A stretch of DNA of 64,000 nt from Trissonchulus latispiculum (lineage: Eukaryota; Nematoda; Enoplea; Enoplida; Ironidae): contig JASAND010028355.1 in the NCBI GenBank assembly GCA_030248195.1, positions 1 through 64,000 on the forward strand. The letters are read 5' to 3'. This document shows positions 2,728 to 41,599 of this stretch, piece by piece. The notes below the pieces were generated by a model. It ran no database searches and was not told where the DNA came from. It was given only the letters and a program-made list of their open reading frames with translations. The number at the start of each line of letters is the position of its first letter. Within the stretch, counting starts at the first letter, position 1. The translations under genes and the position numbers were made by a program.

Positions 2728-4329
2728 TGTGATGGGTAGGCTGAGTTTTGTCGTTTTTTGTCTGTATATTTTGGGACCCTAGGGTCTGTCTTTGTACGGT
2801 AATTGTCATTCATCTGTTGAATCTTGAATCTGAGGATCGTCAAAACATGATGAGAGAGAGAGAGTTGTAATAGTGAAGGTGAAGGAAATAATTCAAAATA
2901 CAATTAACGCGAAAATATCTTCTGTTTTGTGGTTGTTGGTGTGTTTGTTCATTTGTTTGTTGGTTGCTTGTTGTCTGTTTGACGAACTAATATCTAACTA
3001 CATTTATTTTAATAATTGTATAATTGTCAATATTAATTTACTGTTGGTTAGTGTTGTGAACCCCCTCCGCTTCAGTGGTCTGTATCTGTGGAAATTTCCT
3101 GTTTGTGCCGTTTTGTGGGGTTAGTTGCTGATTAATCGGAAAATTGAGCGAAAAATATTTGTCAAACTTCTTATACCTGGGGAGTTTTTCGTCCCCAGGT
3201 AAGCCTCTTAGAAACCAATTTAGACACGATAAGAATCTTCTTCCTTTCTAATCGAAAAATTATGGCCGTTTCTCAAAAGACTTCCAACGCTCGCCGCAAA
3301 TCCTGACTGACAGTGTTCAGTCAGGACAAAAGAGCGATAAGCTGGGTGACTGACCGAAGTTTCTATTTTTCACCCAAGTCAGTCTTGGGGCAGACTCAGT
3401 ACAGTACAGTTGTGTCTTGGTTGGATTGGTCTCCGTATTTTCTCAGTCTTTTGGTAACGGTATTCTGTAAGACCCGAAGCGGGCAAGGTAGTGATTCTAG
3501 ACAGGCGATATACTATACTCTCTATATCCAAACTATTCCTTTGACAGTTAGCCCCTGCGTACTTATTCTCTGATTTGCTTTGCTGGAGCGCTATCACTAA
3601 CTATTTCTCTCGGAGTTTCATCTGGATCTTGGTAAGAGTGTTTGTCTGAAGTCTTGTTAAGTAAGCAAGTAAGGTTACCTCTTGAAAGAAGCGACAAAAT
3701 TAACGTGGGCGATTCTTTAGACAATAAACAATTTAATAGTATCAACGGTTAGCATCTCTAAATTGGAGAACTTAAAGTGGGCTTGCAAGTTGAATTAGCA
3801 TTGTCTTGATTCTGTCATCAGCTGGGCTGGAAATTTGTCGATTATTGTCAATTTATGTCCTGTCTTCGGTTCTAAACCTGTAAACCTGTGTCATTGTATG
3901 CTCCTCTATCTCTGTGAAACCGTGTAACTCATCATCCTACTTGTAAAATTGTGGTGTATTGCATAACCGTGTAAGTTAATAGAATCGAACTTTCATTCTT
4001 GTCTTTAATAGGGAATTTCTGCCAACATTTCGTAGCCATTAGATAATGAACAGAGTGCTTTCTAGTTAAGCTGTACAGATTAGGCGAACTAATTGATTAT
4101 TGTGTGACTATACATTCGGGGTGTGTTGCGGGGGGGTTGGGGGGAGTGGGTTGGGGGGGCGTGGGCGGGTGGAAAAAAAAAGGAAAAATAGGCCTGTAGT
4201 GTGATAATTGGGCTACGTTGTGGGTTGGAGGCTGAAAACCCCTGTAAAATCGAAAGAGAGTTCAAAACCAGTGCTTTGAAGTTCATAGTTTGACTAACTT
4301 AACCCCCAGCGCTAGCCTATTTTATTACA
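2728..4329 (+). repeat. 5' LTR of giant element
   Basis: It begins TGTGATGGG and ends ATTTTATTACA (TG...CA). From 2728 to 4120 it is almost identical to 20042-21435, differing by a few substitutions and small indels. From 4121 to 4329 the two LTRs are still related but clearly diverged. Two perfect hairpins occur at 3175-3200 and 3301-3326. An AATAAA lies at about 3723. Small ORFs within it appear identically in both LTRs and are not considered coding. Confidence 0.85.
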
Positions 4330-4349: not shown

Positions 4350-4819
4350 GGAAAAATTGGGTGTTAATTCTTCAAATAGAGCTCTGCATTTGAAAACATT
4401 TCAAATCTGTCTTTAGTGTTTGAATTTTTAACTAACCCTTTTCCTCGAAAACGAAAACTCACGACCATTTCAATTTCTTTAGAGACTCCCCCTGGTTTAC
4501 AAGTCTATAATTTTATATTTTGTTTCGTCATAACTGTCTTAACTTCAATTAAATTGTTAACTAATCATCACGTACGTCGGCCTTAACTTTTATAAACTAC
4601 ATTATACGTAAGAGTAGATAAGATCGACCTGTACATCCAACACCGTTAAATTAATTGAGACGCTTGAACAGTTTCATTGATGTACAAAATTTCTGCAAAT
4701 AGAATAGCTTGGCATAAAGAGGGTAGTTTATAGTTTTTAATTCTTCTCTTGCAAGGTTAGCCGAATTCTGAACTAGAGATTGTCATTTCAGAATAATACT
4801 GTAAGTTAAGAGAGTAGTG

Positions 4820-7800
4820 ATGCCGAACGATTTAGCAGAGGTAGGGCTGTTAGCACAGCCAGGATCCAGGGTAAATTCCCCTGATCCACCCAGTATAGAG
4901 AGTCAAATTTTGGAAAAGTTGACTGACACGTTGTCAGATTTCAATTCCGCTATTAGGGCGCAGGGAGTCGCCGCAGCATACAGTTCAGTGCCCATCTACC
5001 ATGGGTTGCCCTCAGAGTCTTTCGAGGAACACCTCGAAAAGTACGTTCGATTTTGTCAAGTCATGGACTTCGATGAGGGTCAGAAAGTTCTAACTTTTTC
5101 CAGTTCGCTCGAAGGAAGAGCATTAGAGCAATTTCGTTCAGTCCCAAAAGCTAGTCGCGGAACGTGGGCCGAAATGGTCGAAGCCGCTAAGAAAGTTATG
5201 ATTCCGCCGCATACGGCGTTACATGCCTCTTCTCTCATGTTTCAAGTGAAACAGGAGAAAGGTGAGCCCGTAATGGACTACCTAATGAGGCTAAATAGAT
5301 ACGCGCGATTGAGTTTCACGGAAAAAGACGGTTTCTCGGAAAATCAGTTAGAATTACTGAAATTACGTTTATTTTTGTTTGGGTTAAGGAGTGATTTAAA
5401 AGCTCGCGTGCCTCCAGGCTGCAAAACGATGGAGCGCGCTGTTGAGAAAGCTTTACAGGCTGAGGGTGAATACCCCGGTGAGGCCTATCCGTCTTTTATC
5501 GAGCCAAATTTCAGAAGCGGCCAGGATACGCCGGCGGCCATCGCAGAGGCGGAAAAAGCTATTAGGGAACTGAAAGCAAAATTTGAAAAATTTGAATTGG
5601 ATTCTAAGCAAGGTGGGAACTCTAGCCGAAATGGAAAGGGACGCGATCTACCCCCGGGTACCACCTGTTTTAACTGCAACAGGCCCGGGCATGTTCGCAG
5701 GGAATGCCGCCAACCTGGCGGAGGGGCTTATCGAGCCAACAATCAGGGCTCAGATCGAAACTTTCAGAGACGATCAGATGGAAATAGGAATTTCAGAAAT
5801 ACCAACAACTATTCGAATCGTAGAGAGGGTAATTATGACCAAACTGGTCGCAGGGATCGCTATGAGCGAAATGATGGGAACTATCAGGGCGATCGCAGAA
5901 ACGATCAGGGCCCTAGGCGAGAACATTATGATAGGAATCAAAATTTTGATCGTAGAGATAGGGGAAGGGATTTTCCCCCAGAAATGAAAAGGGAATACGG
6001 GCCTAAGTTTGCGGTTTCATGCTCCAGAACGCAGGAGGGAAACCAGCATTATGAGGGTGGATATCGATCCGGGCGCCGCTCTAGTGGCTCAGGTTCCTCA
6101 TATAGTGACTATCAGGGTGACCAGTACACTGGTGAGCAGTATTACTCTCCCCGCCGTAGAAGGGATTCTAGATCCGACTCATCTGGACAGTACTCAGTTC
6201 GGACGACCCGTAATGTGTCAAAAAGTTGTCTGATGCATGCGAAACGCTGTTTGGCTTCGCCACATTTTCAGCACAAGGTCTTGATGTGCCGACAGCCATT
6301 GATTTGTACTTGCCGGGCACCGGAGCCGAACATGTACTATGATCGGCCCGTGATTAGGCCGCCGAGCGCTAGCTCGTTCACCTCTACTGAGGAAGAATTG
6401 TTCGTTCCAGTCCCACGCAATTCAACTCGCATGCCGAGCGCAAGAAGGGTTCGAAAAGTCCATGAACCCATTGTAGACACAAATACCGTTTCCATTCAGT
6501 GTAATCTTGAAATTTCTGGGCATTCTTGTGAGAACCAGGACGCTGGAAAAATTGGGTCTAGTCTAGGCTTACTTTCCCCTGGGGTCATGTGTTTCTTGTG
6601 GGTCCTAACCACGTTATTTCGAAATCTGAAAAAGGTCGCCCTACCCGCTGCATGGGTATTATTGGCGTTTTTGGTGTCTAAGGCCAATGCACAAACGCAG
6701 GCCGACGCCGATTCTTCCCGATTCTTAGCGGATGAGATAGCCAAAATTGGGACGTTGGTTTTACCTCGTTGGGGAGCGGTTTTGAGTCCCGCAGGGATAG
6801 GGGTTATCTCCCAAAAGACTGAGTATCTAGCCCTAATAGTTCAGCTGGCCGTACCTCCTATGTCGCCTCAGTGGAAGCCCCCGGAATGGGCCAACGAGGA
6901 AGATTGTATTGATCTTACTACTGGAAAGACTAAGACCGATCAATATTGCGTTCGTATGATAAATCAAAGTTGCCCGCAGTTTGACTACCTAGAGCATGAA
7001 ATTGATGCTATAAAGTTAGAATATCGGAAACTTTATTCCGGAGTCTTAAATACGCACTTCTATTCGAAACTGCTATCTAGTTTATGTCGTTCTACTCCTG
7101 GAGTTTGTACGTCCTATCCAGCACCCGAACAGACACACAGTCGACCAAAACGTTTTATCGAATTCTTGTTGGCTGGGGCCTTAGGTTTAGGTGGACTAGC
7201 GAATAGTCTGGCTAATACTTATCATATGGGGCAGTTGGATAATCGAGTCTCTGCAGTTGAGCATGGCTTTAACGTTCTGCGGGAGGATCAACTTAAAATT
7301 ACGGACTCTATTAAAAGAATAGTTCATGCTAATGAGCAGGTTTACGCGTTTTTACATCATACGGTCCAGGATTTAACTACGTTGATTATTAAAGCCAGAT
7401 GTTCGAATTTCTCATATATGCGACAAATTTATATGCAACTTTTGGCACACATTTTCACCTCGTCCTTGAGAGATGGATTAAATTCTGTTATGCGTGCCGG
7501 ACTACATTCGGAAATCAATCCAAATTTGATAAACTTGCAAACTTTAAAAGGAATTATTAGAACTCATCCGTCATTGCGAAATTCTTTGCTCAGGCAAGAA
7601 CCTAGTTTGATTTACCAGTTCGGAAAAGTTTATCCGATCAAAATTGACTTTAACACTCTCCGCTTTGGGTTTATGCTCGAAATTCCGGTACCTTTGGAAA
7701 AAGAAGTTCGCCCGCTTTATGCTATTCACAATGTGGGATACAACTCTCGCGAGAACGGAATTACTGCGCTAGCTCCTTTGCCAAATTACGCGCAAAGACT

Positions 7801-10800
7801 GGACACTGGTGAGGTCCGCGAAATTGATGTTTCGGAATGTAAAACTGCACCCGGACTATGGTTCTGTCCACCCAACGCTATTATAACCAGTTTGAAAGCA
7901 AAGTGTCTGCAAATTTTGATTAGTCACTCTGTTGAGCGCGTAGGCCAAGAGTTTGAGCATTGTCGCACAGCCATACAGGTTAAGGTTTTGGACAATTCTA
8001 CTATTTATCGTACAACGCCCGCTGGAGTTTTAATTAGAACAAATTATACTGAAGTTATAGTCGCACGTTCGCCTTCTTTGAATCACGTTGCTGAAGGCGA
8101 GAGGGTGGCTGTCCCAGCTACCGGCACACTCTGGTTCGAACACGGCCGCTATCTTCATTTAATTATTGGAAACACTATTTTGACTAGCACCTTGGGTGTA
8201 GCGAAAACTACCGTAACCACTTCCGAGTTAAAGGAAACTATTGTACCCGCCCCTCTGGGTCGGATCCCGTTGCATTTTACTGAACTTTCAACTGCTGAGT
8301 ATGAGAATGAGCAGGCGAAAAATTTAATCCAAAGTCAGGTTAAGAATTACGTACATTTGCCCTTAATTCCGTTAGAACTGAAACATGGGTTAGTAGTGGT
8401 GATAGTTATAGTCTTGCTCGGATGTTGTATAGTATGGTGGATCACACCATGTGGCCGAAAGTTTCGGGCTAAAATTAGGAGCCGCAAGAGCCCCTCGCCT
8501 CGACCCGAGCGACCTAGTATCTCTGCACCCGTCGAAAGCCTTAGGTTACAGGAGCCGCTTTTTAGTGACGATGAGGAGGAAGCACCCGTAGAGTTGGGAA
8601 ATTTATCTGTCAAAAGTGATCCTATGCCGTACCGACCACGGGAAAACTTAGACGTTAACTTGGCAGAACGAAACCGTAGGTCTATGGCCAATCGATGCCA
8701 CGCGACCACACACTATAAGCCTATGTCCCGGGACACGTCATACGCGTCTTCCATGTCCGACTATGGACGAGATCATCTCGATCTTAGTGCGCGACCGCCC
8801 ACAGATGACCGCCAAGAGAGTCAGCCATCTCCGCTCATAGATTTTGGGAATAGTAAGAGTAAAGAAGGTCGAATAGTACGGTTCTCGTGTCAAGCTGTTG
8901 ACAAAGAATCAGAGGGAGAACGTAGCGAATCGCCTGTTCATACACAGGCCGATGCGGCCACGAGTCCTTTTAAGCGGCACGTCAGGCCGATCAGTCCAGA
9001 ATCTGACGGATCTGGACCACACACCCGATTCGGAACTAGGAACTCGGGGAGAACTGTGAATGCACATTCTGTACTAATGGTACGTACTATACCCTTAATG
9101 ATTAGCTTACTTCTGGTAGGTAGACCGGTAGATGCGCTTTTTGACACAGGCTCATTATTATCTGTCGTATCACAAGGTTTAGTAGAGAGGTTAGGTCTGA
9201 CCCCTATACCTGTGGATACAGTGGGCTCACTTCGGACCGCCAACGGAGGGAAATGTCAAATTTTGGGGTACGTAAAAATGCCTATTCTTTTTCGTGGAGC
9301 GGAAAAACGTTTGCCTATTCACAATTGGAAATTTTTGGTCGTAGAAAAGCTCACTACTGAATGCATCTTGGGTTCTGATTTTATGGTAACATTTCCGGGT
9401 GAAATTTCCCTAGATTTAGGACAGCATACCATAACTTGGCCCTCGATCGATGGTACACGAGTAACTTTACCGTTAACGTTGCCCACAAAATCTAAGGTGC
9501 AAAGACCTTTGCAGATTGGAACATTAAAACGTGAATGTTGCACCTGCTGTTTAGAGGACGGAATTGTCTCTACACCGCCTCGCCCCCTACCTATGATTTA
9601 TGTAAATTTGAAGGGGCAACCCGTGCAAACCTTATTGGACACGGGTGCAAATTTGAGCCTAATGAATGAAAGTTTAGCGAATTATCTAAATTTGAAGATT
9701 CTGCCTATGGACAGACCATTGCGTGCGGAGGGTGTTAATGGACAAGCTTTGAAATTTCGAGGAGCTGTAAAAGTTCCAGTTGAATTCTACGATACTCCTG
9801 GAATTACGGTCGAGCATACCTTTTTAGTTCCGAAAGGTTTAGCTGAGGATTGTTTGATTGGAACAGACTTTCTGCATGAACATGGGGGTGATCTAACTTT
9901 GAGTTTTGCACAGGGAGAATTGAAATTGTTAAAACCGGAAAGACCACCCATGATTGCAAAGTTAGTTCATCACACACCCGTCACCCAAACTGCTTATAGG
10001 GTGTCAGCAATTAGGAAAGTTACCATTCCCGCTTATTCTGAAGTTACTGTACCCGCTTTGGTTGAAAGTATGGAAAAATTAAAATATGATGGATTCTTTG
10101 AGCCTTCCGAATTGAAATTTGAAAGTAATGACTCAACTTTACAAGTCATGCCTGCTATGGTCAATTTGAGACAAAGACTAATTCCTGTTTTAATGAAAAA
10201 TAAAACAGGCCACCCTCTAACTGTTTACGAAAATTCCACCTTGGGCAATGTCACGCCACGAAACGAACTTAGGAGAGGTCAAGTTATGCGCGAATATAGG
10301 ACGCTTGTTAATGAACGGGGTGAGACAGTGTGTCTCAGAAACTCAGTCAAGTCTAATCACACTAAAAACGCGAAGGGAGGCCTAAATTTTAACGTCAACG
10401 CCTGCAAAGTTAATCGCCCGTGTCAACTCAATGACCTTCCGGAGGCCATGCGTGAAATTTCTTTCGACAAGGAAAATTTGAGTGAGAATGAAATTGGACA
10501 GTTTTTGGGACTCCTGAACATAAACAAAGTTTGCTTTTCTCAGCACCCGTTTGACATCGGAAAGTGTACTATTTTTAAAGCGCATATCAATACTGGGGAG
10601 TCAAAACCAATCTATGCAACTCCTTACAGGTTACCCGTACATTTGAGACAACCACTATTAGAGGAACTTACTGAGATGTTAAAGTATGGGTTAATTAGGC
10701 CCTCAACCAGCCCTTGGAGTTCGCCCATGATTTATGTTCCCAAACCCGGTGGTAAATTGCGACTATGTGTAGATTTTAGAAAGGTCAATAAAATCAGTGA

Positions 10801-11359
10801 CCCGGACGTTTATCCTATTCCCCGCATTGATGATATCATGACATCTTTAAAGGGATCAAAATATTTTTCCACCATTGACTTAAGCAAAGGTTTCAATCAA
10901 ATTGAATTGGATGATGAGTCCAAAGCAAAAGCTAGTTTTAATACCTTTCACGGCCAGTTTGAATATAATGTTTTACCTTTTGGACCGAAATGCGCGCCTG
11001 GAAACTTTCAGCGTTGCATGGAAAGAATTTTGGGAGATTTACAATGGAAAAAGTGCATCATCTACATCGATGACATTTTGATCTTCTCCAAAACTTTTGA
11101 GGAACACTTAGAAATCATGCAGGAGGTTTTTGATCGTTTGCGCGCAGCTGACCTGAAAATGAATCCCGGAAAGTGTCATTTTTTGAAAAAGTCAGTTACT
11201 TATTTAGGCCATATAATTTCCGAACAGGGAGTCGAGCCACTAAGGAGCGAATTCAAGCCATTCATGATTTGGCTGTGCCCAAAAACATTAAGGATGTCGA
11301 AAGTTTTTTGGGTATGTGTGCCTATTATGCAAAATTTATTAAAGGTTTCGCGCACTTAG
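4820..11359 (+). CDS. Gag-Env-PR-PR-RT polyprotein of the giant element
   Basis: The open frame begins at GTG 4817, but the first ATG is 4820, so I start there (residues counted from 4817). It is 2,180 codons with no stop. The N-terminal region is a retrotransposon Gag, followed by a CCHC knuckle at C284, C287, H292, C297 and an Arg/Asn/Tyr-rich stretch. An Env-like module spans about 591-1215. Two retropepsin-like domains follow, with DTG at 1443 (ending near CILGSDF) and DTG at 1608 (ending CLIGTDF). The RT core has LCVDFRKVN, the FSTIDLSKGF box and YIDD at 2083-2086. The frame leaves homology near 11240, where the connection domain continues in another frame. Gag, RT and protease calls are strong. 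Having Env between Gag and PR in one frame is atypical for the family. Confidence 0.9.
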   Translation: MPNDLAEVGLLAQPGSRVNSPDPPSIESQILEKLTDTLSDFNSAIRAQGVAAAYSSVPIYHGLPSESFEEHLEKYVRFCQVMDFDEGQKVLTFSSSLEGRALEQFRSVPKASRGTWAEMVEAAKKVMIPPHTALHASSLMFQVKQEKGEPVMDYLMRLNRYARLSFTEKDGFSENQLELLKLRLFLFGLRSDLKARVPPGCKTMERAVEKALQAEGEYPGEAYPSFIEPNFRSGQDTPAAIAEAEKAIRELKAKFEKFELDSKQGGNSSRNGKGRDLPPGTTCFNCNRPGHVRRECRQPGGGAYRANNQGSDRNFQRRSDGNRNFRNTNNYSNRREGNYDQTGRRDRYERNDGNYQGDRRNDQGPRREHYDRNQNFDRRDRGRDFPPEMKREYGPKFAVSCSRTQEGNQHYEGGYRSGRRSSGSGSSYSDYQGDQYTGEQYYSPRRRRDSRSDSSGQYSVRTTRNVSKSCLMHAKRCLASPHFQHKVLMCRQPLICTCRAPEPNMYYDRPVIRPPSASSFTSTEEELFVPVPRNSTRMPSARRVRKVHEPIVDTNTVSIQCNLEISGHSCENQDAGKIGSSLGLLSPGVMCFLWVLTTLFRNLKKVALPAAWVLLAFLVSKANAQTQADADSSRFLADEIAKIGTLVLPRWGAVLSPAGIGVISQKTEYLALIVQLAVPPMSPQWKPPEWANEEDCIDLTTGKTKTDQYCVRMINQSCPQFDYLEHEIDAIKLEYRKLYSGVLNTHFYSKLLSSLCRSTPGVCTSYPAPEQTHSRPKRFIEFLLAGALGLGGLANSLANTYHMGQLDNRVSAVEHGFNVLREDQLKITDSIKRIVHANEQVYAFLHHTVQDLTTLIIKARCSNFSYMRQIYMQLLAHIFTSSLRDGLNSVMRAGLHSEINPNLINLQTLKGIIRTHPSLRNSLLRQEPSLIYQFGKVYPIKIDFNTLRFGFMLEIPVPLEKEVRPLYAIHNVGYNSRENGITALAPLPNYAQRLDTGEVREIDVSECKTAPGLWFCPPNAIITSLKAKCLQILISHSVERVGQEFEHCRTAIQVKVLDNSTIYRTTPAGVLIRTNYTEVIVARSPSLNHVAEGERVAVPATGTLWFEHGRYLHLIIGNTILTSTLGVAKTTVTTSELKETIVPAPLGRIPLHFTELSTAEYENEQAKNLIQSQVKNYVHLPLIPLELKHGLVVVIVIVLLGCCIVWWITPCGRKFRAKIRSRKSPSPRPERPSISAPVESLRLQEPLFSDDEEEAPVELGNLSVKSDPMPYRPRENLDVNLAERNRRSMANRCHATTHYKPMSRDTSYASSMSDYGRDHLDLSARPPTDDRQESQPSPLIDFGNSKSKEGRIVRFSCQAVDKESEGERSESPVHTQADAATSPFKRHVRPISPESDGSGPHTRFGTRNSGRTVNAHSVLMVRTIPLMISLLLVGRPVDALFDTGSLLSVVSQGLVERLGLTPIPVDTVGSLRTANGGKCQILGYVKMPILFRGAEKRLPIHNWKFLVVEKLTTECILGSDFMVTFPGEISLDLGQHTITWPSIDGTRVTLPLTLPTKSKVQRPLQIGTLKRECCTCCLEDGIVSTPPRPLPMIYVNLKGQPVQTLLDTGANLSLMNESLANYLNLKILPMDRPLRAEGVNGQALKFRGAVKVPVEFYDTPGITVEHTFLVPKGLAEDCLIGTDFLHEHGGDLTLSFAQGELKLLKPERPPMIAKLVHHTPVTQTAYRVSAIRKVTIPAYSEVTVPALVESMEKLKYDGFFEPSELKFESNDSTLQVMPAMVNLRQRLIPVLMKNKTGHPLTVYENSTLGNVTPRNELRRGQVMREYRTLVNERGETVCLRNSVKSNHTKNAKGGLNFNVNACKVNRPCQLNDLPEAMREISFDKENLSENEIGQFLGLLNINKVCFSQHPFDIGKCTIFKAHINTGESKPIYATPYRLPVHLRQPLLEELTEMLKYGLIRPSTSPWSSPMIYVPKPGGKLRLCVDFRKVNKISDPDVYPIPRIDDIMTSLKGSKYFSTIDLSKGFNQIELDDESKAKASFNTFHGQFEYNVLPFGPKCAPGNFQRCMERILGDLQWKKCIIYIDDILIFSKTFEEHLEIMQEVFDRLRAADLKMNPGKCHFLKKSVTYLGHIISEQGVEPLRSEFKPFMIWLCPKTLRMSKVFWVCVPIMQNLLKVSRT
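6587..8500 (+). other. Env-like class-I glycoprotein module inside the polyprotein
   Basis: Residues 591-625 form a hydrophobic signal-like segment ending ANA. The following region is Cys-containing, with several Asn-x-Ser/Thr sites. RPKR at 776-779 fits a furin-type cleavage site. It is followed at once by a hydrophobic Gly/Ala/Leu-rich segment (FIEFLLAGALGLGGLANS) and then a heptad-like helix (NRVSAVEHGFNVL). A membrane anchor (GLVVVIVIVLLGCCIVWW) lies at about 1191-1209, followed by a basic then acidic cytoplasmic tail. This layout is that of retroviral, errantiviral and baculovirus F-type fusion proteins. I cannot place it in one Env lineage by eye. Predicted topology puts Gag and PR-RT both on the cytosolic side, so one chain could thread the membrane coherently. 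Confidence 0.75.
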
Positions 11360-12054
11360 CCGCACCGCTTTATTCGTTAAAAAAGAAAGGGGTCCGTTTT
11401 GTTTGGAACAACACGCACCAACAGTCCTTTGATTTACTTAAGAAAAGTTTAGTAGAAGCTCCCGTGCTTGCACATCCTGATTTAGCAAAGGGATTCATCT
11501 TGCACACTGATGCATCCGATCTAGGGTTAGGAGCTGTTTTGTCTCAGGAACAGGACGATGGCAAGTACCATCCTGTAGCCTACGCAGCCAGGTCCTTAAA
11601 GAAATACGAGAGAAATTACTCTACACACGATAAGGAGTGTTTAGCTATGAAATTTGGTATTGAGCACTTTCGTCATTACTTATACGGGGGTCCACCGTTT
11701 ACACTGTTTACGGATCATTCCGCTTTGAGATGGCTAATGAAACATCCCCCTCGAAATTCTCGGTTAGCTAGATGGCAAATGACTTTTTCGGAATATGATT
11801 TTGAAATCAAACATCGGAATAACCCACAACTCCGAAACGCTGATGGACTGTCACGAAACCCACTTTTCGCAGATATCGCTAAAGGCCTACTTGGAGACGA
11901 AAAAGAGAATGATCGAAAATGCGTTCAAGTTTATCAGGAGGACGGTGAGGAGCTAGTTGCTCACATAAAATCTGTAGTTGTTCGAAATGGAGCCCAGAGG
12001 GCTCGAGACCCCAATGTCTCAGTCATTAACAAATTACGCGCTAGAAGGGTGTAA
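11240..12054 (+). CDS. RT connection and RNase H domain (frame-shifted from RT)
   Basis: RNase H degrades RNA in RNA:DNA hybrids during reverse transcription. The frame opens before 11240, but homology starts near 11240 with the gypsy RT-RH linker (AVPKNIKDVESFLG). The RNase H acidic residues are visible in HTDASDLGLGAVL, DKECLAMKFG, LFTDHSALRW and NADGLSR. It is one frame back from the RT ORF, so a single-base loss or equivalent near 11236-11255 separates them. It stops at TAA 12052-12054, while the next frame opens at 12045; a second break of the same kind links this to the integrase part. The N-terminal residues before 11240 in this frame are not homologous and should be ignored. Confidence 0.85.
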
Positions 12055-13018
12055 CTACTGTTCGATCCAAAGTTTCGAAGATCTCTCAACCCTCTAGTTC
12101 TAGTAGCTCGGACGAAGAGAAGGGTCAACCCTCGCCAGAGAAACAACCGAAACTGAAAGGTGCTGGTACGATTTCTAGTTCGGATTCCGAAGAATCGGAA
12201 CCCACGGTTAAAAGGACAGTCAGACCAAGAATCCTAGACTTGGACTACCCCAGTAAGGCATATGAGAAGTCAATAGAACCGCGATCCGAACGTCAATCTT
12301 CGGATACCAGCCGTCCTAAACGGAATGACCCGGCTACCGCCATGTTTAGCGAGGTTTTTCACCATGCCGTACGTGATAATTCTAATGTTTCTCTTAACCC
12401 TAAATCTTGGACAAAATTACAAGCCTTGCAACGCGAAGATTTACTTTTGAATGGCATTATAGATTACAAAGTTAATGGAAATTTACCTAGCAACTTTAAT
12501 CTTGCGGTCAAAATTACCTCGCTAGCTGAACAATGCGATATGCGCGATGACGTCTTAGTACACCTAGAGAAAGTGCGCGATACGACCCTTGAAGTTTTAG
12601 CTGTGCCCGAAAGTTTACGAGATGAGGCGCTTGCTGCATGTCATGATAGCCCTTACGCCGCGCACAGCGGTAGAAACAAGACTTGTTTTCGATTATCCCA
12701 GCATTTTTGGTGGCCCGGAATGTATACGGACGTTAAACGTTGGGTGGAATCTTGCCCGCGCTGTCAAAAACGAAAAGGCCCACCCAAAAATCCAAAAGCA
12801 CCTCTACAGCATGCCCCTATGGCTGTAGAACCCTTCGAGCGTGTTCATTGTGACCTAATGGATGTTAGTAAGGCCTCTAAAAGTGGTATGAAACATATTT
12901 TGAGTTTTGTAGACGCCTTTTCGAAATACGTCATTGCTATCCCCATTAAAAACAAGACCGCTTACACGGTGGCACAAAGTTTTCTCGAATTTGTCATTTT
13001 GCAGTATGGCCCCCAAAA
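12045..13018 (+). CDS. Integrase N-terminal half (zinc finger and first catalytic Asp)
   Basis: Open from 12045, with no ATG near the beginning, so it belongs to the upstream pol frame. It begins with a Ser/Glu-rich linker. An HHCC finger follows (CHDSPYAAHSG ... ESCPRCQKRK). The core starts with VHCDLMDV, whose Asp codon is at 12852-12854. Homology passes to another frame near 13015, in or next to a C-run followed by an A-run (GGCCCCCAAAA). That break again shifts by minus one. This frame continues to 13061 with unrelated residues. Confidence 0.85.
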
Positions 13019-14866
13019 TTGCTCATTTCAGACCAAGGAAAGGAATTTGTTGCATTACTGAATAAGGAAATTTGCTCGCAGGTGCAAACTCGAAAACTTG
13101 AAACTACTCGATATCATCCCGCCGCAAACGGTCAAGTTGAACGTTGGCACCGAACTCTACTTGATATGTTAGCTACGGTGACCGAAAATCATTTAGAATG
13201 GGATAATATGGTACCGTACTGTCAATTTGCTTACAATACGTCTATCAACTCCACCACGGGTGAAACCCCTCATTATCTTTTGCATGCTTGGGATCCCGTC
13301 TTGCCTAGTGCAACCAATGTAGCCATACCCACCGATCGGAAATATTCTGGGTTTGACTATGTCAGAGAAGCGACAGAAGCTCTACAGTTAGCATGGTCTC
13401 TAGCTCGTGAGAAGATAGGCGCGGCTAGGAAAGTTCAGGACGCAAATTATAATCAAAATGCAGTTGAGCCAAAATTTCAGGTTGGTGATTTGGTTATGAT
13501 CAAAGCATCTAATGTTGCAAAACGAGATCAGGTTTTCAAACTTTTGGATAAGAAAATTGGACCCTATCGTATAGAGAAAATTATTGGGTGTGTCGCAGAG
13601 GTCTATCCCGCAGGAAATCGACGCGCAAAAAGAGTCAAAGTTCAGTTTAATAATATGTATCCTTGTGTTGAACCTCGCGTAATTACGGCACCCGTTCATG
13701 ATCACGATGATGAAAATTCGGATAGAGACGAATTCCCTGCTCCTAAGGAGCGGCACTCGAAAGCTGCTAAAATACCTTTAGAGCCGGAACCTCCTAAGAC
13801 ACCACCTGTCGCGGACTCGCCCTCTGAGAATGAAGATCCACGACCATCAACTCGCAAGCAGCCTAGCAGAAAGTCCAAAGTTGCTCGTTCGGATACCAGT
13901 CCGGAAAAACCGGCTGTACAACCTCGGAAACGGGTTCCGCTCTCTCCCAAACAGAAGAGCGTTGCTCCTGCAAAAGTTGCTGTTTCCTCCCAAGATTCCG
14001 CCTCAGATTCCGATAGCATTCCCCAGTTCATGGGTGAAGAGTCGTTAACACCGGAAAAAGACCCAATCGCTTTTAATCGTCGACATTTCTTTAACCCAGT
14101 CGACGCTCGCTGGCAACGCCATATGGCATTATTGCGTGGTCTACCGATCGACCATATCTTGCCTGAAATGATGAGGCACACCCCACTCCACGAACCTTAC
14201 CAGGTCATCAATGTTATTGGAGACGGGAATTGCTACTACCGTGCTATCTCGCTAGCCATTACTGGCTCTGAAGAGCATTGGGTACATATCAAACGAGACT
14301 TACTCACGTTTCTTGAGACATACGAGCACAAACGGCGTTTTCGTACACTTTTTAACGATCTGGAGTCTGTCAAAAACAGTCTCACCAAAACCGCCGAATA
14401 TGCCACTGATGATGAACTCTTTTTGACTGCCGCCTGGCTACGTACGCCTATACAGTCATATTCAAAGTTTGGTCCCGCATGGGCTTGGCAACAATTTTTG
14501 CCAGACGCTTTGCTTGGATCAAGCCAAAGTTATGAGAGAAATTCGCTTTATCTCTACAATGAGAATAGCGATCACTTTATGGTAGTCCTATCCGTACAGA
14601 CACCAGCCGGATTCCAATGGCCTACCAAGAACTCACCTAAAATCAAGATTATGGAACTAGTTTCTAGTTCGTCTTCGAACCAATCTTCCCCTGCCGATGA
14701 TCCTAAGAAATCCGGCAGATCCTCTGCACCTAATGTAGAGAAACTTTTCTCAGAAAGCCCTTTGTTTTCTGGGCCAAGTCCCCTTTTCCAGAATCCCTTT
14801 AGGAGGTCCAAACGTGGAAATGCCTCCTCTGACCCTACTTCGGGTCGTTACTCGTCTGAACAATAG
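13019..14866 (+). CDS. Integrase core C-half, GPY/F module and OTU domain
   Basis: The ORF starts in mid-domain. ISDQGKEF carries the second catalytic Asp (codon 13031) and NGQVERWH the Glu (codon 13139), 35 residues between, the D-x35-E spacing of integrases. A GPY/F module (KIGPYRIEKIIG) follows at about residues 180-230. A long Ser/Pro/Lys-rich linker then leads to an OTU-type cysteine protease-like domain at about 388-530. The C-terminal tail is Ser-rich and ends at TAG 14864-14866. OTU enzymes usually remove ubiquitin from substrates. Here the domain could process the polyprotein or deubiquitinate host or element proteins; which is unknown. OTU domains are known in a few other retroelements. 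Confidence 0.85.
   Translation: MLISDQGKEFVALLNKEICSQVQTRKLETTRYHPAANGQVERWHRTLLDMLATVTENHLEWDNMVPYCQFAYNTSINSTTGETPHYLLHAWDPVLPSATNVAIPTDRKYSGFDYVREATEALQLAWSLAREKIGAARKVQDANYNQNAVEPKFQVGDLVMIKASNVAKRDQVFKLLDKKIGPYRIEKIIGCVAEVYPAGNRRAKRVKVQFNNMYPCVEPRVITAPVHDHDDENSDRDEFPAPKERHSKAAKIPLEPEPPKTPPVADSPSENEDPRPSTRKQPSRKSKVARSDTSPEKPAVQPRKRVPLSPKQKSVAPAKVAVSSQDSASDSDSIPQFMGEESLTPEKDPIAFNRRHFFNPVDARWQRHMALLRGLPIDHILPEMMRHTPLHEPYQVINVIGDGNCYYRAISLAITGSEEHWVHIKRDLLTFLETYEHKRRFRTLFNDLESVKNSLTKTAEYATDDELFLTAAWLRTPIQSYSKFGPAWAWQQFLPDALLGSSQSYERNSLYLYNENSDHFMVVLSVQTPAGFQWPTKNSPKIKIMELVSSSSSNQSSPADDPKKSGRSSAPNVEKLFSESPLFSGPSPLFQNPFRRSKRGNASSDPTSGRYSSEQ
14180..14610 (+). other. OTU cysteine protease domain (C-terminus of Pol)
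   Basis: The catalytic box is IGDGNCYYRAIS, with Asp three residues before the Cys (Cys codon 14231-14233, residue 405 of the frame opening at 13019). The following helix matches the OTU pattern RAxSxxxxGxxxxHxxxR. The catalytic His is in NSDHFMVVLS (codon 14573-14575, residue 519). All three expected catalytic positions are intact. Confidence 0.85.
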
Positions 14867-16056: not shown

Positions 16057-16140
16057 TCCAGAGTTTCCCTGCCGCTAGATTGTCCTGAATCCTTGAGAGG
16101 TCCTCATCGTTGGAGTAGTGATTTGCCCGAAGGTCTCAGA

Positions 16141-16620
16141 ATGGAGCCTGGAATGATTGATATCTACACAGATCCCCGTAGAGCTGAGTTGTTTCGTCCT
16201 AACGTACGTGTGCAGTTAGTGTCCCAGGTGGCCCAAATTTGCACGTTCCTGTGCTTGCAGTGTTTTTGGAGAGTGGGTCTAAGTTTTTATGGAGTCCCGT
16301 TCGTGGTTTTTCCGTTGTCTGATGATGTGCGTTTGTCCCGTGACCCTCATAAGTTGCGTTTGCTTGAGCTTGTTCCCTCGTTAGGAGGTGGAATGTTTCG
16401 TTGCCCTAACATTAGGTGTCAGTGTCCCAAAGTCGTTATTCTACATGAGCATGAGGATTGGTATTATAATCACGGTGTGCAAGTGTTGCCTGCGGAGGCT
16501 AGGTTTCTGTTAAATAATATCCACCGTGTGTTTCCGTTGCATGTCCCGTGTGATGTCCTAGATTATCGTATGCGTATGCTTGGTGAGTGTCCACCATTTC
16601 ATCCTATCATCCTTAACTAA
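16141..16620 (+). CDS. Accessory protein A of the giant element
   Basis: The frame is open from 16057; the first ATG is 16141, giving about 159 residues. I do not recognise the family. It has a CLQCFW motif (Cys codons 16252 and 16261), then FYGVPF, then FRCPNIRCQC (Cys codons 16402 and 16417) and VILHE..DW. Cys spacing C-x2-C ... C-x4-C suggests a metal-binding fold. The same pattern recurs in the following ORF, so the two are related. It lies in the same strand as pol, in the place where retroviruses keep accessory genes. Upstream splicing is possible since the frame stays open before the ATG. Confidence 0.6.
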   Translation: MEPGMIDIYTDPRRAELFRPNVRVQLVSQVAQICTFLCLQCFWRVGLSFYGVPFVVFPLSDDVRLSRDPHKLRLLELVPSLGGGMFRCPNIRCQCPKVVILHEHEDWYYNHGVQVLPAEARFLLNNIHRVFPLHVPCDVLDYRMRMLGECPPFHPIILN

Positions 16621-16805
16621 GTTCCTAATTCCTTAAGTCAATAAGTACGAGTAAGATCCTTATCCCTTAGTTGACCTGATCCTTTAGTCCTTAGTTGCAA
16701 CTTTAGGTAGACATTAGAATAGAGCCAGATGTAATATTGTGTGTGCGTAGTGTGAATGTTGATAACTTTCCCAAGGTCCTCATTTTCCTTTTGTTTTGTA
16801 GAACC

Positions 16806-17569
16806 ATGTCAAGTTACGTTGCCCGTTGGTTAGCCCAGTGTGATCTGTTGAGTGAGGAGAGTGATGATGATTATCATTCGGCAGCTGCCTACCTGCCGTC
16901 GTCCTGGTCTTCTTCTTCGTCTTCTTCTTCTTCTTCTTCCTCCTCCTCTTCGCCGTCGTCCGGCATTGCGTGCTGGAATCGTTCCCCTACCATCCTGCCG
17001 AAGATCCTTCAGTTGAGATATGATCCCGGTCCCCCGGAGAGCTGTTGTCCATCGTCCGCCCAGCGAGGTCCCATGAGAGCGGAAAGCCAATTGCCGCCGG
17101 AGCTGAAGATGCTCCACCACCGTGGTCAGCGAGATGTCATCTACTGTGCGCCAGATGCCAATGACAAGTTCGTCCCCTTCCGCCCCCTCTCTGTGTTGAG
17201 TTCTGATGTGGTTGCGTGTTGCACTCTGTTGTGTGTGAACTGTTTTTGGAAGTTCAGTTTACGTTATTTTGGAGTGCCTTTCCGTTTTGTTCCTGCCCTG
17301 CACCTACTAAGTTCCAGTTTTATGATTTTCCTACTAAGTCATCTCTGTTGAGTTTAGTTCTTCCTAACCGTTCGCCTGCCTTCCGTTGTCCTAACAGGAT
17401 CTGTTTGAGTTCTTCTACTATCATTTTGCACGAGATCCCTAATTGGCGTTTGCATGGCCCGTTCACTATTCGTAACCGGCATCCCATTTTTGTTGAAACT
17501 TTGTTGGATTGTTTGCCTGGTTTGCATGACCCTCCCATTCCGGAGGATTTTCTGAATGTTGATTTTTAA
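16806..17569 (+). CDS. Accessory protein B, paralogue of A, with a frame break
   Basis: ATG 16806 lies four bases after a strong 3' splice acceptor (TTTTGTTTTGTAG, ending 16801), as expected of a spliced subgenomic mRNA. The start (MSSYVARWLAQ) leads into an acidic patch and a poly-Ser run encoded by TCT repeats at about 16908-16960. CVNCFWKFSLRYFGVPF follows (Cys codons 17232 and 17241). The frame ends at TGA 17351. Homology to protein A continues in the minus-one frame (FRCPNRIC, Cys codons 17387 and 17402; TIILHEIPNW) to a stop at 17567-17569. The break lies between about 17290 and 17320. Function unknown. Confidence 0.6.
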
Positions 17570-18825: not shown

Positions 18826-18879
18826 TTGTGTGTGTTTGATTTTAGGCTGAATCTCAGCAATGGTATTTTTCTGGTTTCT

Positions 18880-18914
18880 TGGTCCAGTGGTGGTTGGTCC
18901 GATGGTTCGATTCC
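18880..18914 (+). promoter_or_regulatory. tRNA-like Pol III A and B boxes, closely spaced
   Basis: TGGTCCAGTGG (18880-18890) matches an A box, and GGTTCGATTCC (18904-18914) is a perfect B box followed by CGG. The gap is 13 bases, too short for an anticodon arm. It resembles a tRNA-Glu/Asp remnant and sits directly at the start of the minisatellite. Confidence 0.55.
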
Positions 18915-19500
18915 CGGTCAGCATCGTCAGCATCCTTCCCGTCAGACCGTATCCCGGTCGTCAGCGTCAGCGTCAGCATCGTCAGCATCCGTCCCGTCAG
19001 ACCGTATCCCGGTCGCCAGCGTCAGCGTCAGCGTCAGCATCGTCAGCATCCGTCCCGTCAGACCGTATCCCGGACGTCAGCGTCAGCGTCAGCATCGTCA
19101 GCATCCGTCCCGTCAGACCGTATCCCGGTCACCAGCGTCAGCGTCAGTGCCAGCATCGTCAGCATCCGTCCCGTCAGACCGTATCCCGGTCGCCAGCGTC
19201 AGCGTCAGCATCAGCAGCGTCAGAGTCAGCGTCAGCATCATCGTCAGCATCCTTCCCGTCAGACCGTATCCCGGTCGTCAGCGTCAGCATCAGCAGCGTC
19301 AGAGTCAGCGTCAGCGTCATCAGCATCATCCCTATCAGGCCGTATCCCGGTCGTCAGCGTCAGCGTCAGCATCAGCGTCATCGTCAGTGTCCGCATCATC
19401 AGCATCCCCGCCATCAGACCGTATCCCGGTCGTCAGCGTCAGCGTCAGCGTCAGCGTCAGTGTCAACATCGTCAGCGTCATCGCCGTCATCATCATCATC
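18905..19500 (+). repeat. GTCAGC-rich minisatellite, open in all three forward frames
   Basis: About eight units alternate a conserved segment (CCCGTCAGACCGTATCCCGG) with a variable number of GTCAGC hexamers, giving units of roughly 50-65 bp. All three forward frames are stop-free for over 600 bases, because the motif lacks stops in any frame. Unit lengths that are not multiples of three cycle each frame through the same three peptide repeats. I do not call a protein here. Confidence 0.8.
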
Positions 19501-20041
19501 ATCCTCATCAGCTTCTCCTGCCCGTGGCCCTGCCTGGCCACCCAATCTACATAAGAACTGATTGGACTATTGCCACAGTGATTGCAGAACTGTTTGGATT
19601 TCTGCCACAGATGATTCCTGGTCCCATCCTGCTCCGGCGCTGGTTACCATGATTCGGTAACCTACTCCCTATAGACAGTGGGAGTACCACAGGACTCTTT
19701 TAGCGCCACCCCGATCCAATTCTTGATCTAAAACTTTTACAGTTACGTAACATGTATGCGTACGATGTAGTGGTATTGTACTCTGCGGTTTCTTCCTTTT
19801 GCCTAAAAAGGATGGTAATTTTACTTATGCTTGCTAGATGGTTCGTTGTGGTTTTTGACGTATAGTACCCCCCGGTTTGCTCCTTTCGTCCTAAACGGTT
19901 CCTCGGATTGACTCCTTTGGCTGACTAAAACCTAATCTGGCAAACCGCGGCGTTGAGTGGTCTGGTATTGAGTTTTGTCGATTTTTGTCTGTATATTTTG
20001 TCCCCCTAGTGTAACTTTACCGGCTTTTTTATTGTGTGAAG
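19501..20041 (+). other. Region upstream of the 3' LTR with a partial LTR-like duplication
   Basis: 19966-20013 (GAGTTTTGTCGATTTTTGTC...) is a diverged copy of the LTR segment at 20054-20101. No clear polypurine tract is seen directly before 20042, which is unusual for an LTR element. Confidence 0.6.
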
Positions 20042-21669
20042 TGTGATGGGTAGGCTGAGTTTTGTCGTTTTTTGTCTGTATATTTTGGGACCCTAGGGTC
20101 TGTCTTTGTACGGTAATTGTCATTCATCTGTTGAATCTTGAATCTGAGGATCGTCAAAACATGATGAGAGAGAGAGTTGTAATAGTGAAGGTGAAGGAAA
20201 TAATTCAAAATACAATTAACGCGAAAATATCTTCTGTTTTGTGGTTGTTGGTGTGTTTGTTCATTTGTTTGTTGGTTGCTTGTTGTCTGTTTGACGAACT
20301 AATATCTAACTACATTTATTTTAATAATTGTATAATTGTCAATATTAATTTACTGTTGGTTAGTGTTGTGAACTCCCTCCGCTTCAGTGGTCTGTATCTG
20401 TGGAAATTTCCTGTTTGTGCCGTTTTGTGGGGTTAGTTGCTGATTAATCGGAAAATTGAGCGAAAAATATTTGTCAAACTTCTTACCTGGGGAGTTTTTC
20501 GTCCCCAGGTAAGCCTATTAGAAACCAATTTAGACACGATAAGAATCTTCTTCCTTTCTAATCGAAAAATTATGGCCGTTTCTCAAAAGACTTCCAACGC
20601 TCGCCGCAAATCCTGACTGACAGTGTTCAGTCAGGACAAAAGAGCGATAAGCTGGGTGACTGACCGAGTCCCAGTTTCTATTTTTCACCCAAGTCAGTCT
20701 TGGGGCAGACTCAGTACAGTACAGTTGTGTCTTGGTTGAATTGGTCTCCGTATTTTCTCAGTCTTTTGGTAACGGTATTCTGTAAGACCCGAAGCGGGCA
20801 AGGTAGTGATTCTAGACAGGCGATATACTATACTCTCTATATCCAAACTATTCCTTTGACAGTTAGCCCCTGCGTACTTATTCTCTGATTTGCTTTGCTG
20901 GAGCGCTATCACTAACTATTTCTCTCGGAGTTTCATCTGGATCTTGGTAAGAGTGTTTGTCTGAAGTCTTGTTAAGTAAGCAAGTAAGGTTACCTCTTGA
21001 AAGAAGCGACAAAATTAACGTGGGCGATTCTTTAGACAATAAACAATTTAATAGTATCAACGGTTAGCATCTCTAAATTGGAGAACTTAAAGTGGGCTTG
21101 CAAGTTGAATTAGCATTGTCTTGATTCTGTCATCAGCTGGGCTGGAAATTTGTCGATTATTGTCAATTTATGTCCTGTCTTCGGTTCTAAACCTGTAAAC
21201 CTGTGTCATTGTATGCTCCTCTATCTCTGTGAAACCGTGTAACTCATCATCCTACTTGTAAAATTGTGGTGTATTGCATAACCGTGTAAGTTAATAGAAT
21301 CGAACTTTCATTCTTGTCTTTAATAGGGAATTTCTGCCAACATTTCGTAGCCATTAGATAATGAACAGAGTGCTTTCTAGTTAAGCTGTACAGATTAGGC
21401 GAACTAATTGATTATTGTGTGACTATACATTCGGGATCTGACCCAGACGGGTTACTTCCGGGTAGAGTTGATATTAACCTGAAGAAGGGGACCCTGTGCC
21501 CGATTGAAAACAACGAGTTAAAATAGAGCGATTCTGTATTGTAATAATTTGGGCTAACTAGTGGGTTGGAGGCTTAAATCCCCTGGAAGGGTAAAAGAGC
21601 GTAAAACCAGTGCTAATAAGAAGTGCATTTTGACTAAATTAACCCTCAGCGAAAGCCTATTTTATTACA
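20042..21669 (+). repeat. 3' LTR of giant element
   Basis: Starts TGTGATGGG and ends ATTACA. It is near-identical to the 5' LTR up to 21435 and diverged from it in 21436-21669. The hairpins at 20485-20510 and 20611-20636 are conserved. Confidence 0.85.
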
Positions 21670-35615: not shown

Positions 35616-36253
35616 CAAGAGTGCATAATTGCACTATATATAAGAAGAAGAGTAAGCCACTAGAGGGCTCCTCTTCTTGGCATTGCGTAACGGTGCTCCG
35701 ACCACAATACGCGAATGTTCCCCCGTTTGGTGTGGGAGGGGTAGCCAAAAGAGGTCCCCGTTTGGTGGGGGGTAGCCAACAGCCAATCAGATTGCGGAGA
35801 CCCCTTCCCCGTTTGGTGGGGGGGGGGGTATAGCAGAGGATTACGGTAGTTTTTGTTCTATTTGAAAAAGGGTCCCTGTTTGGTGGGGGGGTATGCAAAA
35901 GGGATCCCCGTTTGGTGGGGGGGGGGGGATGCGAAAAGGGTCCCCGTTTGGTGGAGGGGTAGGCGCATGGGGTCCCCGTTTGGGGGGGGGGTCGCCAACA
36001 GCCAATCAGATTCAGCCAATGTCAGCCTGACCCCCCCAAACGGGGGCCCCCTTCTGCCTACCCCCCCACCAAACGGGGACCCCTTTTGCTTACCCCCCTC
36101 TACCCCCCCCGCCACCAAACGGGGAGAGGGTATGCTTGTCGACCCCCCCCACCAAACGGGGGAACATTCGCGTATTCTGGTCGGAGCACCGTTACGCAAT
36201 GCCAAGAAGAGAAGCCATCTAGTGGCTTACTCTCCTTCTAATATGCACTCTTG
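35616..36253. mobile_element. Foldback DNA element, copy B (CCCCGTTTGG-type)
   Basis: Ends are CAAGAGTGCATA and TATGCACTCTTG with arms of about 150 bp inverted. A 7-bp duplication CTATTAT lies at 35609-35615 and 36254-36260. The interior is packed with CCCCGTTTGGTGGGG motifs in both orientations. Its arms match copy A at 489-1051. Confidence 0.85.
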
Positions 36254-39905: not shown

Positions 39906-40870
39906 TTTCTTTTCCTCCCTTGGACAGTCAGCGGGCCGAACAAAAGCATCCCGGTCACGACCCGGAATAAATTGCATAGGCTGTCGCCGTTGACGACATG
40001 AACGACGCAGCGGCTGCTGAACCCCCTAAAGGAGGATTGAATGGTTCCGGAGGCGGTTTGACAACAGCCGGAACCCCAGCAACAGGACGGGAAGGCACGG
40101 TTAGCCACGACCGCGTTAGTTCAGATTGTGAAGGGTCCTTTTTGGAAGAGTCAAGCCCAAGGATCTGATCCACGTGACGGCGCCAGATTAGATCTTCTGC
40201 TTTCACTCGATAGCTGACAGGCCCAGTACGTTGCAAAATAGAACCCTGTCGTGACCACCTAGGCTTGTTCCCCCTCTAATCTTTTACCCAGACCCTTTTA
40301 CCCGGTTCAAACAGTCTAGCATTTGCCAAAGGACCCGTTCTTTTTTCAGGACGTTTCGAGGAGGGCAAACCAAAAAATAATCGGGTACGAAGGTTCCAGT
40401 TGAACAACGCTTGGCAGGAGAGTCAATGGACTGTGAAAATGGAGTTGAGCGGTACCCAAGAAGGAAATTGGTCAGCGTCCTGCTTAGATTCCCACACTTG
40501 AGTTTGCTGAAAGTTCTTTTAAATGTTTGGACAAAACGTTCTGCGGTCCCATTGCTTCTAGGGTGGTAAGGAGGGGAGAATATTTGTCGGATGCTACAAG
40601 ACTGCCTGTATTCTGTGAAGACATGGGAATGGAATGGAGGACCGTTGTCGGTCACAATTTCTTCGGGAAGACCGAACCGAGCAAAAATAGGGTATAGTGC
40701 CGCGACGGTCGCTTCAGCCGATGCCGACCGCATAGGCACCACATCTGGCCATTTGGTATGGCTGTCAACGAAAATCAGCCATTTTGTTCCATAAAAGGGG
40801 CCTGCGAAATCCAGGTGAATACGACTCCAGGCTTACCCGGGTCATTCCAAGGAATGGCTGGAGCAGTAGA
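39906..40870 (-). pseudogene. Gypsy integrase, core and C-terminus
   Basis: The core triad is visible: HLDFAGPF, then EEIVTDNGPPF, then SNGTAERFVQTFK. The C-terminal tail RTGPVSYRVKAEDLIWRRHV is intact. The N-terminal zinc finger is missing. The frame is interrupted several times (stops or shifts near 40280 and 40800). It is fused almost directly to the RT remnant. Confidence 0.85.
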
Positions 40871-40919
40871 CGGGTTGGATCTTTCCGTAGACGAATTCCA
40901 TAATCTCGAAGACGCTGAA

Positions 40920-41450: not shown

Positions 41451-41599
41451 GTTTTGATCAGCCTTAATATCTTTAATTTTTCCTGATTTTTCTTCAAAAA
41501 GGTCCTTGTAGTCTTCTAACATTTTTGACAAACGTCTGTTTTCTGCATTGACTTTGTAGCCTCTGCCGGTCTTTTAGAGGGCAGACCAGTTTAATCTGA

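Follow-up and report, generated by a model that had tools for sequence, protein, structure and literature searches.

Can a retroelement carry its envelope protein inside the Gag-Pol frame, between Gag and the protease, and make all three as one chain? The question is raised by a long terminal repeat (LTR) element of the nematode Trissonchulus latispiculum, located on contig JASAND010028355.1 (positions 1 to 64,000 of the forward strand; this whole stretch of 64,000 nucleotides is called here the window). To our knowledge, all enveloped retroelements keep env after pol, either with an RNA of its own or as the last part of the polyprotein. For the element described here it is probable that an envelope (Env) resembling the fusion protein F sits in the middle of a single Gag-Env-protease-protease-reverse transcriptase-RNase H-integrase-OTU frame, and that the full-length RNA is read as one membrane-threaded chain. 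This reading is based on the order of the domains, the unbroken frame in many copies, the kept signal, cleavage site and anchor, and the purifying selection on Env and on the linkers that surround it.

The frame and its domains

The frame 4817-11359 is open over 2180 codons in the window copy, against 85-169 stops in each of the remaining five frames of the same interval. The uninterrupted frame of 2,180 codons reported in a first-pass annotation of the window is thus confirmed. The order given there (CCHC Gag, signal peptide, RPKR site, fusion-peptide-like segment, membrane anchor, two proteases and reverse transcriptase, RT) agrees with the Pfam matches and the motif positions. The end of the frame at 11359 is correct for the window copy only: the frame of the family is longer (about 3,350 amino acids (aa) in relatives, three of which reach the OTU domain), whereas the window copy shifts frame. 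The features of the polyprotein are the following.

4820-5716, plus strand: Gag; Retrotrans_gag at 5096-5314 (residues 94-166), Pfam PF03732, E 4.5e-7
5663-5713, plus strand: CCHC zinc knuckle of Gag (residues 283-299), PF00098, E 2e-5
5717-6550, plus strand: linker 1, rich in Arg, Gly and Ser, sharing the frame of Gag and Env; stop-free in the window and under constraint between copies
6551-6691, plus strand: predicted internal signal of Env (residues 579-625), with basic residues followed by a hydrophobic stretch and by A-x-A before Q
6692-7153, plus strand: N-terminal (surface) subunit of Env, terminating in a furin-type RPKR (7142-7153)
7154-8386, plus strand: fusion subunit of Env; opens with a fusion-peptide-like segment and continues with an F-like domain that has conserved cysteines
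8387-8464, plus strand: transmembrane anchor of Env and short basic stub; hydropathy 3.0 over 19 residues
8465-9061, plus strand: linker 2, from the Env tail to the protease; polar, in frame, stop-free in the window
9062-9466, plus strand: first aspartic protease-like domain; DTG at residue 1443; PF13975 and PF13650 stretches in P0003; borders approximate
9590-9895, plus strand: second aspartic protease domain; DTG at residue 1608; PF13975 E 1.1e-21, RVP E 8.8e-7
10736-11218, plus strand: RT; RVT_1 E 3.1e-38; YIDD at residue 2083
11479-11796, plus strand: RNase H, in another frame in the window copy; PF17917, E 3e-39, in the open reading frame (ORF) 11173-12054
12603-13016, plus strand: integrase zinc-binding domain and start of the catalytic core; PF17921, E 3e-24; another frame change in the window copy
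14219-14491, plus strand: OTU-like cysteine protease domain, end of the polyprotein; PF02338, 24.9 bits for a cut-off of 23.3

At their own base composition, the probability of finding no stop by chance is about 2e-7 for linker 1 (residues 301-590) and about 2e-4 for linker 2 (residues 1217-1410). A chance open frame through the linkers was rejected on these low probabilities and on the constraint of the linkers as protein between copies. Linker 1 contains a Cys-rich island upstream of the Env signal (residues 451-500, i.e., 6167-6316), which is 72-96% identical in three comparisons, and the linker on its flanks varies.

Both members of the tandem aspartic protease pair (9062-9895) keep their DTG. 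The best matches of the RT among solved structures are 4ol8_A (RT/RNase H, E 5.5e-43), which we take to be that of Ty3, and 7q5b_A, the Ty3 Gag-Pol (E 3.5e-42). The rve match of the integrase is under the Pfam cut-off in the window (E 2.6e-5) and over it in three other copies (L029-L031).

Copies elsewhere in the genome

The genome of the nematode was surveyed with Env (70 matches scored of 1141 candidates, 82-100% identical) and with RT (150 matches scored of 4999 candidates). One open frame of 3341-3396 aa runs through Env in 17 of the 70 Env matches, and only 6 have a stop inside the match. Among the 150 RT matches, 34 are without internal stop in frames of at least 3341 aa; half of these (17) are the frames already found with Env. 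From the other 17, three belonging to further subfamilies were sampled, and all three hold an Env 78-81% identical in the middle of the open piece. A domain search places RT, RNase H, integrase and OTU in one frame in L029, L030 and L031, i.e., in three subfamilies, with OTU scores of 27.5, 27 and 23.0 bits, the last being just under the cut-off of 23.3.

Reading of 28 copies gave Gag sequence upstream of Env and in frame with it in 27. In 21 of the 28, the frame runs open from inside Gag, across Env and both protease motifs, to the end of the piece; it is stopped or broken inside Env in two (L004, L028). Together with the three copies sampled from further subfamilies, these counts bear out the proposal of the first-pass annotation that Env lies within the Gag-Pol frame, and show this order in other copies of the genome. 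The order of the family polyprotein is Gag-Env-PR-PR-RT-RH-IN-OTU (PR, protease; RH, RNase H; IN, integrase). Since many relatives are intact in a single frame, with the order continuing through OTU, the window copy is a damaged member of its family.

An alignment of 27 copies was used for the residues 1 to about 1750. L028, which matches Env with a broken frame, was left out of it and is counted in the 28; L004, with its stop inside Env, was kept in the alignment and excluded from the scan for splice sites (26 copies). The row named REF is the same copy as L001.

The envelope segment

Env comprises 626 residues (591-1216) between the CCHC Gag and the tandem aspartic proteases. The hydrophobic peaks of the window frame are at residues 579, 607, 780 and 1191, with one more at 1416 in the first protease. 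R-x-K-R at residues 776-779 is directly followed by a hydrophobic stretch rich in Gly, Ala and Leu; the further R-x-[KR]-R motifs, at 446 and 1285, are both outside Env. A strong anchor is found at residues 1191-1209. AxA followed by Q, together with the hydrophobic peak of the signal, is present in all 27 aligned copies, as is R-x-K-R-F, and the anchor in 26, i.e., in every copy whose open piece reaches it. Basic residues precede the hydrophobic part of the signal and follow the anchor, which are the sides expected to be cytosolic. Three traits of class I (paramyxovirus F-type) fusion proteins are thus present: (i) a signal; (ii) a furin site, then a hydrophobic fusion peptide; (iii) a C-terminal anchor.

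The sole relative in the protein collection, among about 8000 candidates scored, is P0004, encoded by a contig of 6591 bases and 40% identical across 94% of Env. It keeps the furin site R-x-K-R-F, the fusion-peptide-like stretch and the anchor, and nine Env cysteines are kept down to this level of 40% identity. A search with the protease part gave no match. No relative of Env was found in viral contigs or in prokaryotic genome contigs (two peptide patterns each), nor in phage records. Residues 591-1216 match no Pfam family (P0002, up to E 10), no NCBIfam family and no meaningful PHROG; membership of the curated F family is therefore not indicated by Pfam profiles up to E 10.

Profiles built from several Env sequences were more informative. 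With two sequences, the single PDB match below E 10 is the fusion glycoprotein F0, entry 8v5a (E 0.075), and a sub-threshold piece puts the cleavage sites of Env and F0 in register, with a similar spacing to the F-like domain. With seven sequences, F0 is again first (E 0.0082) and the next one is an unrelated chain at 1.8. With ten sequences, the only PDB match is F0 (8v5a_A, E 0.0061, 142 positions). Env is probably a class I, paramyxovirus-F-like fusion glycoprotein.

Selection and divergence between copies

L009 and L012 are the only pair, among the 11 computed, with all segments at a useful distance. For this pair the ratio of nonsynonymous to synonymous divergence (dN/dS) is 0.01 for both Env subunits and for the Gag core, 0.13 for linker 1, 0.04 for linker 2, 0.04-0.07 for the proteases and 0.22 for the signal. 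The signal sequence is the fastest-changing segment, though its AxA before Q is kept. The values of dS vary strongly by segment between these two copies. The low ratios of the linkers indicate that these are translated in the shared frame and constrained; Env and both linkers are, as judged from these ratios, under purifying selection as protein.

The comparison of the window with L009 goes in the same direction. At the protein level Env is 96-97% identical, yet 29 of 63 fourfold sites differ in the surface subunit and 113 of 166 in the fusion subunit; by segment, 39-68% of the fourfold sites differ. Because subfamilies 78-100% identical in Env keep the frame despite such a divergence, an artefact of assembly or decay, fusing frames that are separate in reality, was rejected.

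Another proposal, which would give Env the highest conservation within the entire element, was also rejected. Within residues 1-1750 the Env ectodomain is the best-conserved segment in four of the six tabulated pairs, and in the two closest pairs (window-L003 and L009-L012) the conservation of the Gag core equals or exceeds it. The RT of the 82% subfamily is about 96% identical.

The distribution of fourfold differences between L001/REF and L003 is uneven. Within residues 627-1190 of Env, 16 of 70 and 55 of 175 sites differ; on the flanks the values are 8/117, 8/92 and 5/60 for the linkers and second protease, 14/90 for the Gag core and 12/71 for the first protease. As the divergence of Env exceeds that of its flanks, Env looks exchanged between lineages by recombination.

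One chain or several products

Several observations weigh against a single chain bearing an F-like Env. The window copy is broken after RT: the frame shifts near the RT/RNase H boundary, and RNase H, integrase and the OTU domain follow in other frames. Frames of 1110-1450 aa, i.e., the length of Gag plus Env plus part of linker 2, are found in 15 of the 70 scored Env matches. A stop lies 15-124 codons behind Env in five of the 28 copies read (L002, L005, L006, L007 and L027). The dN/dS values are based on few pairs, most of the 11 being saturated in some segments. The window Env alone has no match in the PDB up to E 1, P0004 alone matches only unrelated chains (E at least 0.38), and the F0 match of the ten-sequence profile is itself weak (E 0.006 over 142 positions). 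Signals for a separate Env product, described below, have to be added to this list.

The five stops behind Env fall 641-750 codons after the Env start, in five different places, and in subfamily A the lesions behind the post-Env stops are unlike one another. On these grounds a stop common to copies behind Env was rejected, and the post-Env stops of subfamily A may be read as decay. A stop or splice separating Gag, Env and Pol, which the first-pass annotation had envisaged as speaking against its proposal, was not found in a form common to the copies read, but these five individual stops after Env do occur; the outcome is mostly in favour of the proposal.

The strongest competing explanation, which the first-pass annotation offered beside the single chain, is that Env is made separately, either from a spliced subgenomic RNA (from the leader or the Gag start to a site 5' of the signal) or from a Met start in the signal, the shared frame being incidental and the full-length RNA giving mainly Gag and Pol. 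The window has a GTAAGT at 4801, just before the Gag start, and an AG at 6499, 88 bases 5' of Met 591, which is by eye the next ATG after this AG. GTAAG also stands directly before the Gag ATG in three of 13 other leaders (L009, L010, L021). All but one of the 27 aligned copies carry a Met somewhere between residues 591 and 604, so that translation could begin close to the signal, at a position that depends on the subfamily. A precedent exists in Drosophila: according to PMC12992720, env-F is expressed by splicing, with an upstream exon located either 5' of gag or inside it. Against such signals, none of the 13 other leaders shown has the donor motif at the place where it stands in the window, and only two AGs between residues 430 and 640 are common to 26/26 copies (at residues 517 and 519), which is about chance by a rough estimate. 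The donor- and acceptor-like sites of the window were thus rejected as a general env splice, single subfamilies still being conceivable. At the Env start there is no single Met column that all copies share, and L021 has no Met between residues 580 and 626, yet has a frame of 3355 aa. Linker 1 is moreover constrained as protein in the Gag-Env frame. Lastly, because no stop common to copies follows Env, translation of a separate Env RNA would in most copies continue into the protease, and would mostly yield Env-Pol rather than Env. We regard separate production of Env as rather unlikely, while giving it serious weight.

The splicing may also be imagined the other way round, with Env removed from the genomic RNA like an in-frame retained intron: Gag-Pol would come from the Env-less RNA, and Gag-Env or Env-Pol from the unspliced one. 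Elements with a single frame need a means to alter their Gag:Pol ratio, and copia uses splicing for this. However, the GTs that all copies share within linkers 1 and 2 do not stand in a conserved GTRAG context in the three copies displayed, and any given GTRAG site is conserved in 8 of 20 copies at most, which makes this explanation very improbable. Still less credible is that the 626-residue segment is some other secreted or membrane protein taken up by the element and not a viral Env. Its lack of a Pfam or NCBIfam family and of a meaningful PHROG, and a PDB match at only E 0.006, would fit this; on the other hand it combines a signal, a furin site followed by a stretch rich in Gly, Ala and Leu, a single C-terminal anchor and nine cysteines kept to 40% identity, and a class I viral fusion protein is its one match in the PDB, the cleavage sites being aligned in register by a sub-threshold piece. 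The simplest reading of the frame would thus be its translation as a single chain, whose internal signal opens the transfer across the membrane and whose anchor stops it.

The element and its surroundings

Other features of the element are the following.

2728-4120, plus strand: 5' LTR, aligned to the 3' LTR; exact ends approximate
16057-16620 and 16707-17569, plus strand: two accessory ORFs, downstream of the OTU domain and before the 3' LTR; the second is split over two frames in this copy
20042-21435, plus strand: 3' LTR, aligned to the 5' LTR

The LTR pair aligns over 1389 bases with 3 mismatches and 9 gap columns. The LTRs differing by so little (3 mismatches/1389 aligned bases), the insertion is young. 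A target-site duplication of 4-6 bases was not found beside the LTRs, the ends of which are approximate. A G-rich stretch directly follows the 5' LTR. Several traits of Metaviridae are present (flanking LTRs, the order protease-RT-RNase H-integrase and an RT closest to the Ty3 type by its matches among solved structures), and the element belongs to a large family in this genome of 734 Mb. It is classified as a recent insertion of a Ty3/gypsy-type (Metaviridae) LTR element that is present in many copies.

The two accessory ORFs are related to each other (E 5e-13) and have relatives in the same region of L032, L033 and L034; the best match of the first ORF is 53-96% identical, and L032 holds three relatives. 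Pfam gave no match for the window ORFs 16093-16620 and 16737-17351. The accessory ORFs are considered as a protein family of the element, without Pfam assignment. A tandem repeat array (18862-19505), with units of 55/61 bases and of CGTCAG type, is located just 5' of the 3' LTR and is open in several frames.

Outside the element, the window contains exons of a G protein-coupled receptor at 37.8-39.5 kb, and the surrounding DNA is read as invertebrate nuclear; a COX1-like match located elsewhere in the genome gives a sensible translation under the invertebrate mitochondrial code. Remains of a second gypsy-type element are found at 40789-42272 (minus strand), with RT pieces 24-40% identical plus a protease, and an RVT_1 reverse transcriptase ORF at the end of the window (62468-64000, minus strand). 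Inverted repeats at 57269-57682 and 35638-36244, with arms of 123 and 102 bases, are possibly remains of small DNA transposons. No RNA family reaches its gathering score.

Comparison with known systems

The env of Drosophila errantiviruses lies after pol. No errantivirus-like env was found downstream of pol in the window element: among the frames of at least 60 aa between the OTU end and the 3' LTR, two pass a hydropathy of 2.2, and both are in the CGTCAG repeat array. The structural polyproteins of flaviviruses and alphaviruses carry a cytosolic capsid, an internal signal, a lumenal glycoprotein and further products in one chain. The proposed chain would resemble these capsid-glycoprotein polyproteins, in topology only, more than it resembles any retrovirus; they belong to unrelated viruses without reverse transcription.

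Atlas virus, as described in PMC9094657, has Gag, Pol and Env in one frame of 2828 aa without stop or intron, Env being last. This virus and related hookworm elements (Belpaoviridae, PMC9094657) thus share with the present element an Env in one frame with Gag and Pol. They differ from it by an Env placed after Pol, of class II and phlebovirus-like (Gn-Gc), and by a Bel/Pao RT, whereas here Env precedes the protease and appears F-like, and the RT is Ty3-like. TelKA of bdelloid rotifers is an LTR element with an F-like class I Env of about 600 aa having a furin site, a fusion peptide and an anchor (PMC5408684). In that account its Env is ORF3, after pol, and matches pfam00523, in contrast to the Env found here, which is inside the polyprotein and without Pfam match. 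The Drosophila errantiviruses gypsy and ZAM are also Metaviridae with a furin-cleaved Env bearing a fusion peptide and an anchor; the description in PMC12992720 has their Env made from a spliced RNA, and the window Env lies between Gag and protease. Cer1 of C. elegans is likewise a Ty3/gypsy element with one large polyprotein (2272 aa); PMC10309623 describes it as having no recognisable envelope, and an extra ORF (CERV) after pol. OTU domains behind gypsy-type integrases are known from the Ginger1 DNA transposons (PMC2836005). Here the OTU domain closes the polyprotein at its C-terminal end, in the manner of Ginger1 transposases, and follows the Ty3-type integrase of an LTR element.

Among the matches listed from the open-access literature, there was no LTR element in which env stands between gag and pol within a single frame. 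An Env in one polyprotein is known (Atlas virus), as is an F-like Env (TelKA); the position in the middle of the polyprotein is new as far as the literature searched and the accounts cited above go.

Proposed assembly from one chain and its meaning

With Env in the middle of the chain, Gag and Pol would be at opposite ends of a membrane-spanning protein. The full-length RNA would be translated as one chain, Gag being made in the cytosol. The internal signal of Env would then open translocation and signal peptidase would cut after A-x-A, leaving Gag tethered to the membrane until cut free. The Env ectodomain would enter the lumen of the endoplasmic reticulum, with cleavage by furin; the anchor would stop the transfer, so that proteases, RT and integrase emerge in the cytosol as a tail of Env, and the Pol enzymes would then release themselves by proteolysis. 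Gag, Env and Pol would in this manner be delivered to one membrane patch in equal amounts. That there is an enveloped retroelement lineage assembling from one Gag-Env-Pol chain, in which the signal serves as Gag anchor, the enzymes are carried on the Env tail and envelopment, budding and packaging are coupled, has in our opinion slightly better than an even chance of being right.

If true, this would be a retroelement route to envelopment needing neither a matrix domain nor a separate packaging of Pol, and an assembly unlike that of any retrovirus or errantivirus. The many full-length frames and the strong purifying selection on Env suggest an envelope with a function today, or with one until a short time ago; the question would therefore be testable in the living animal.

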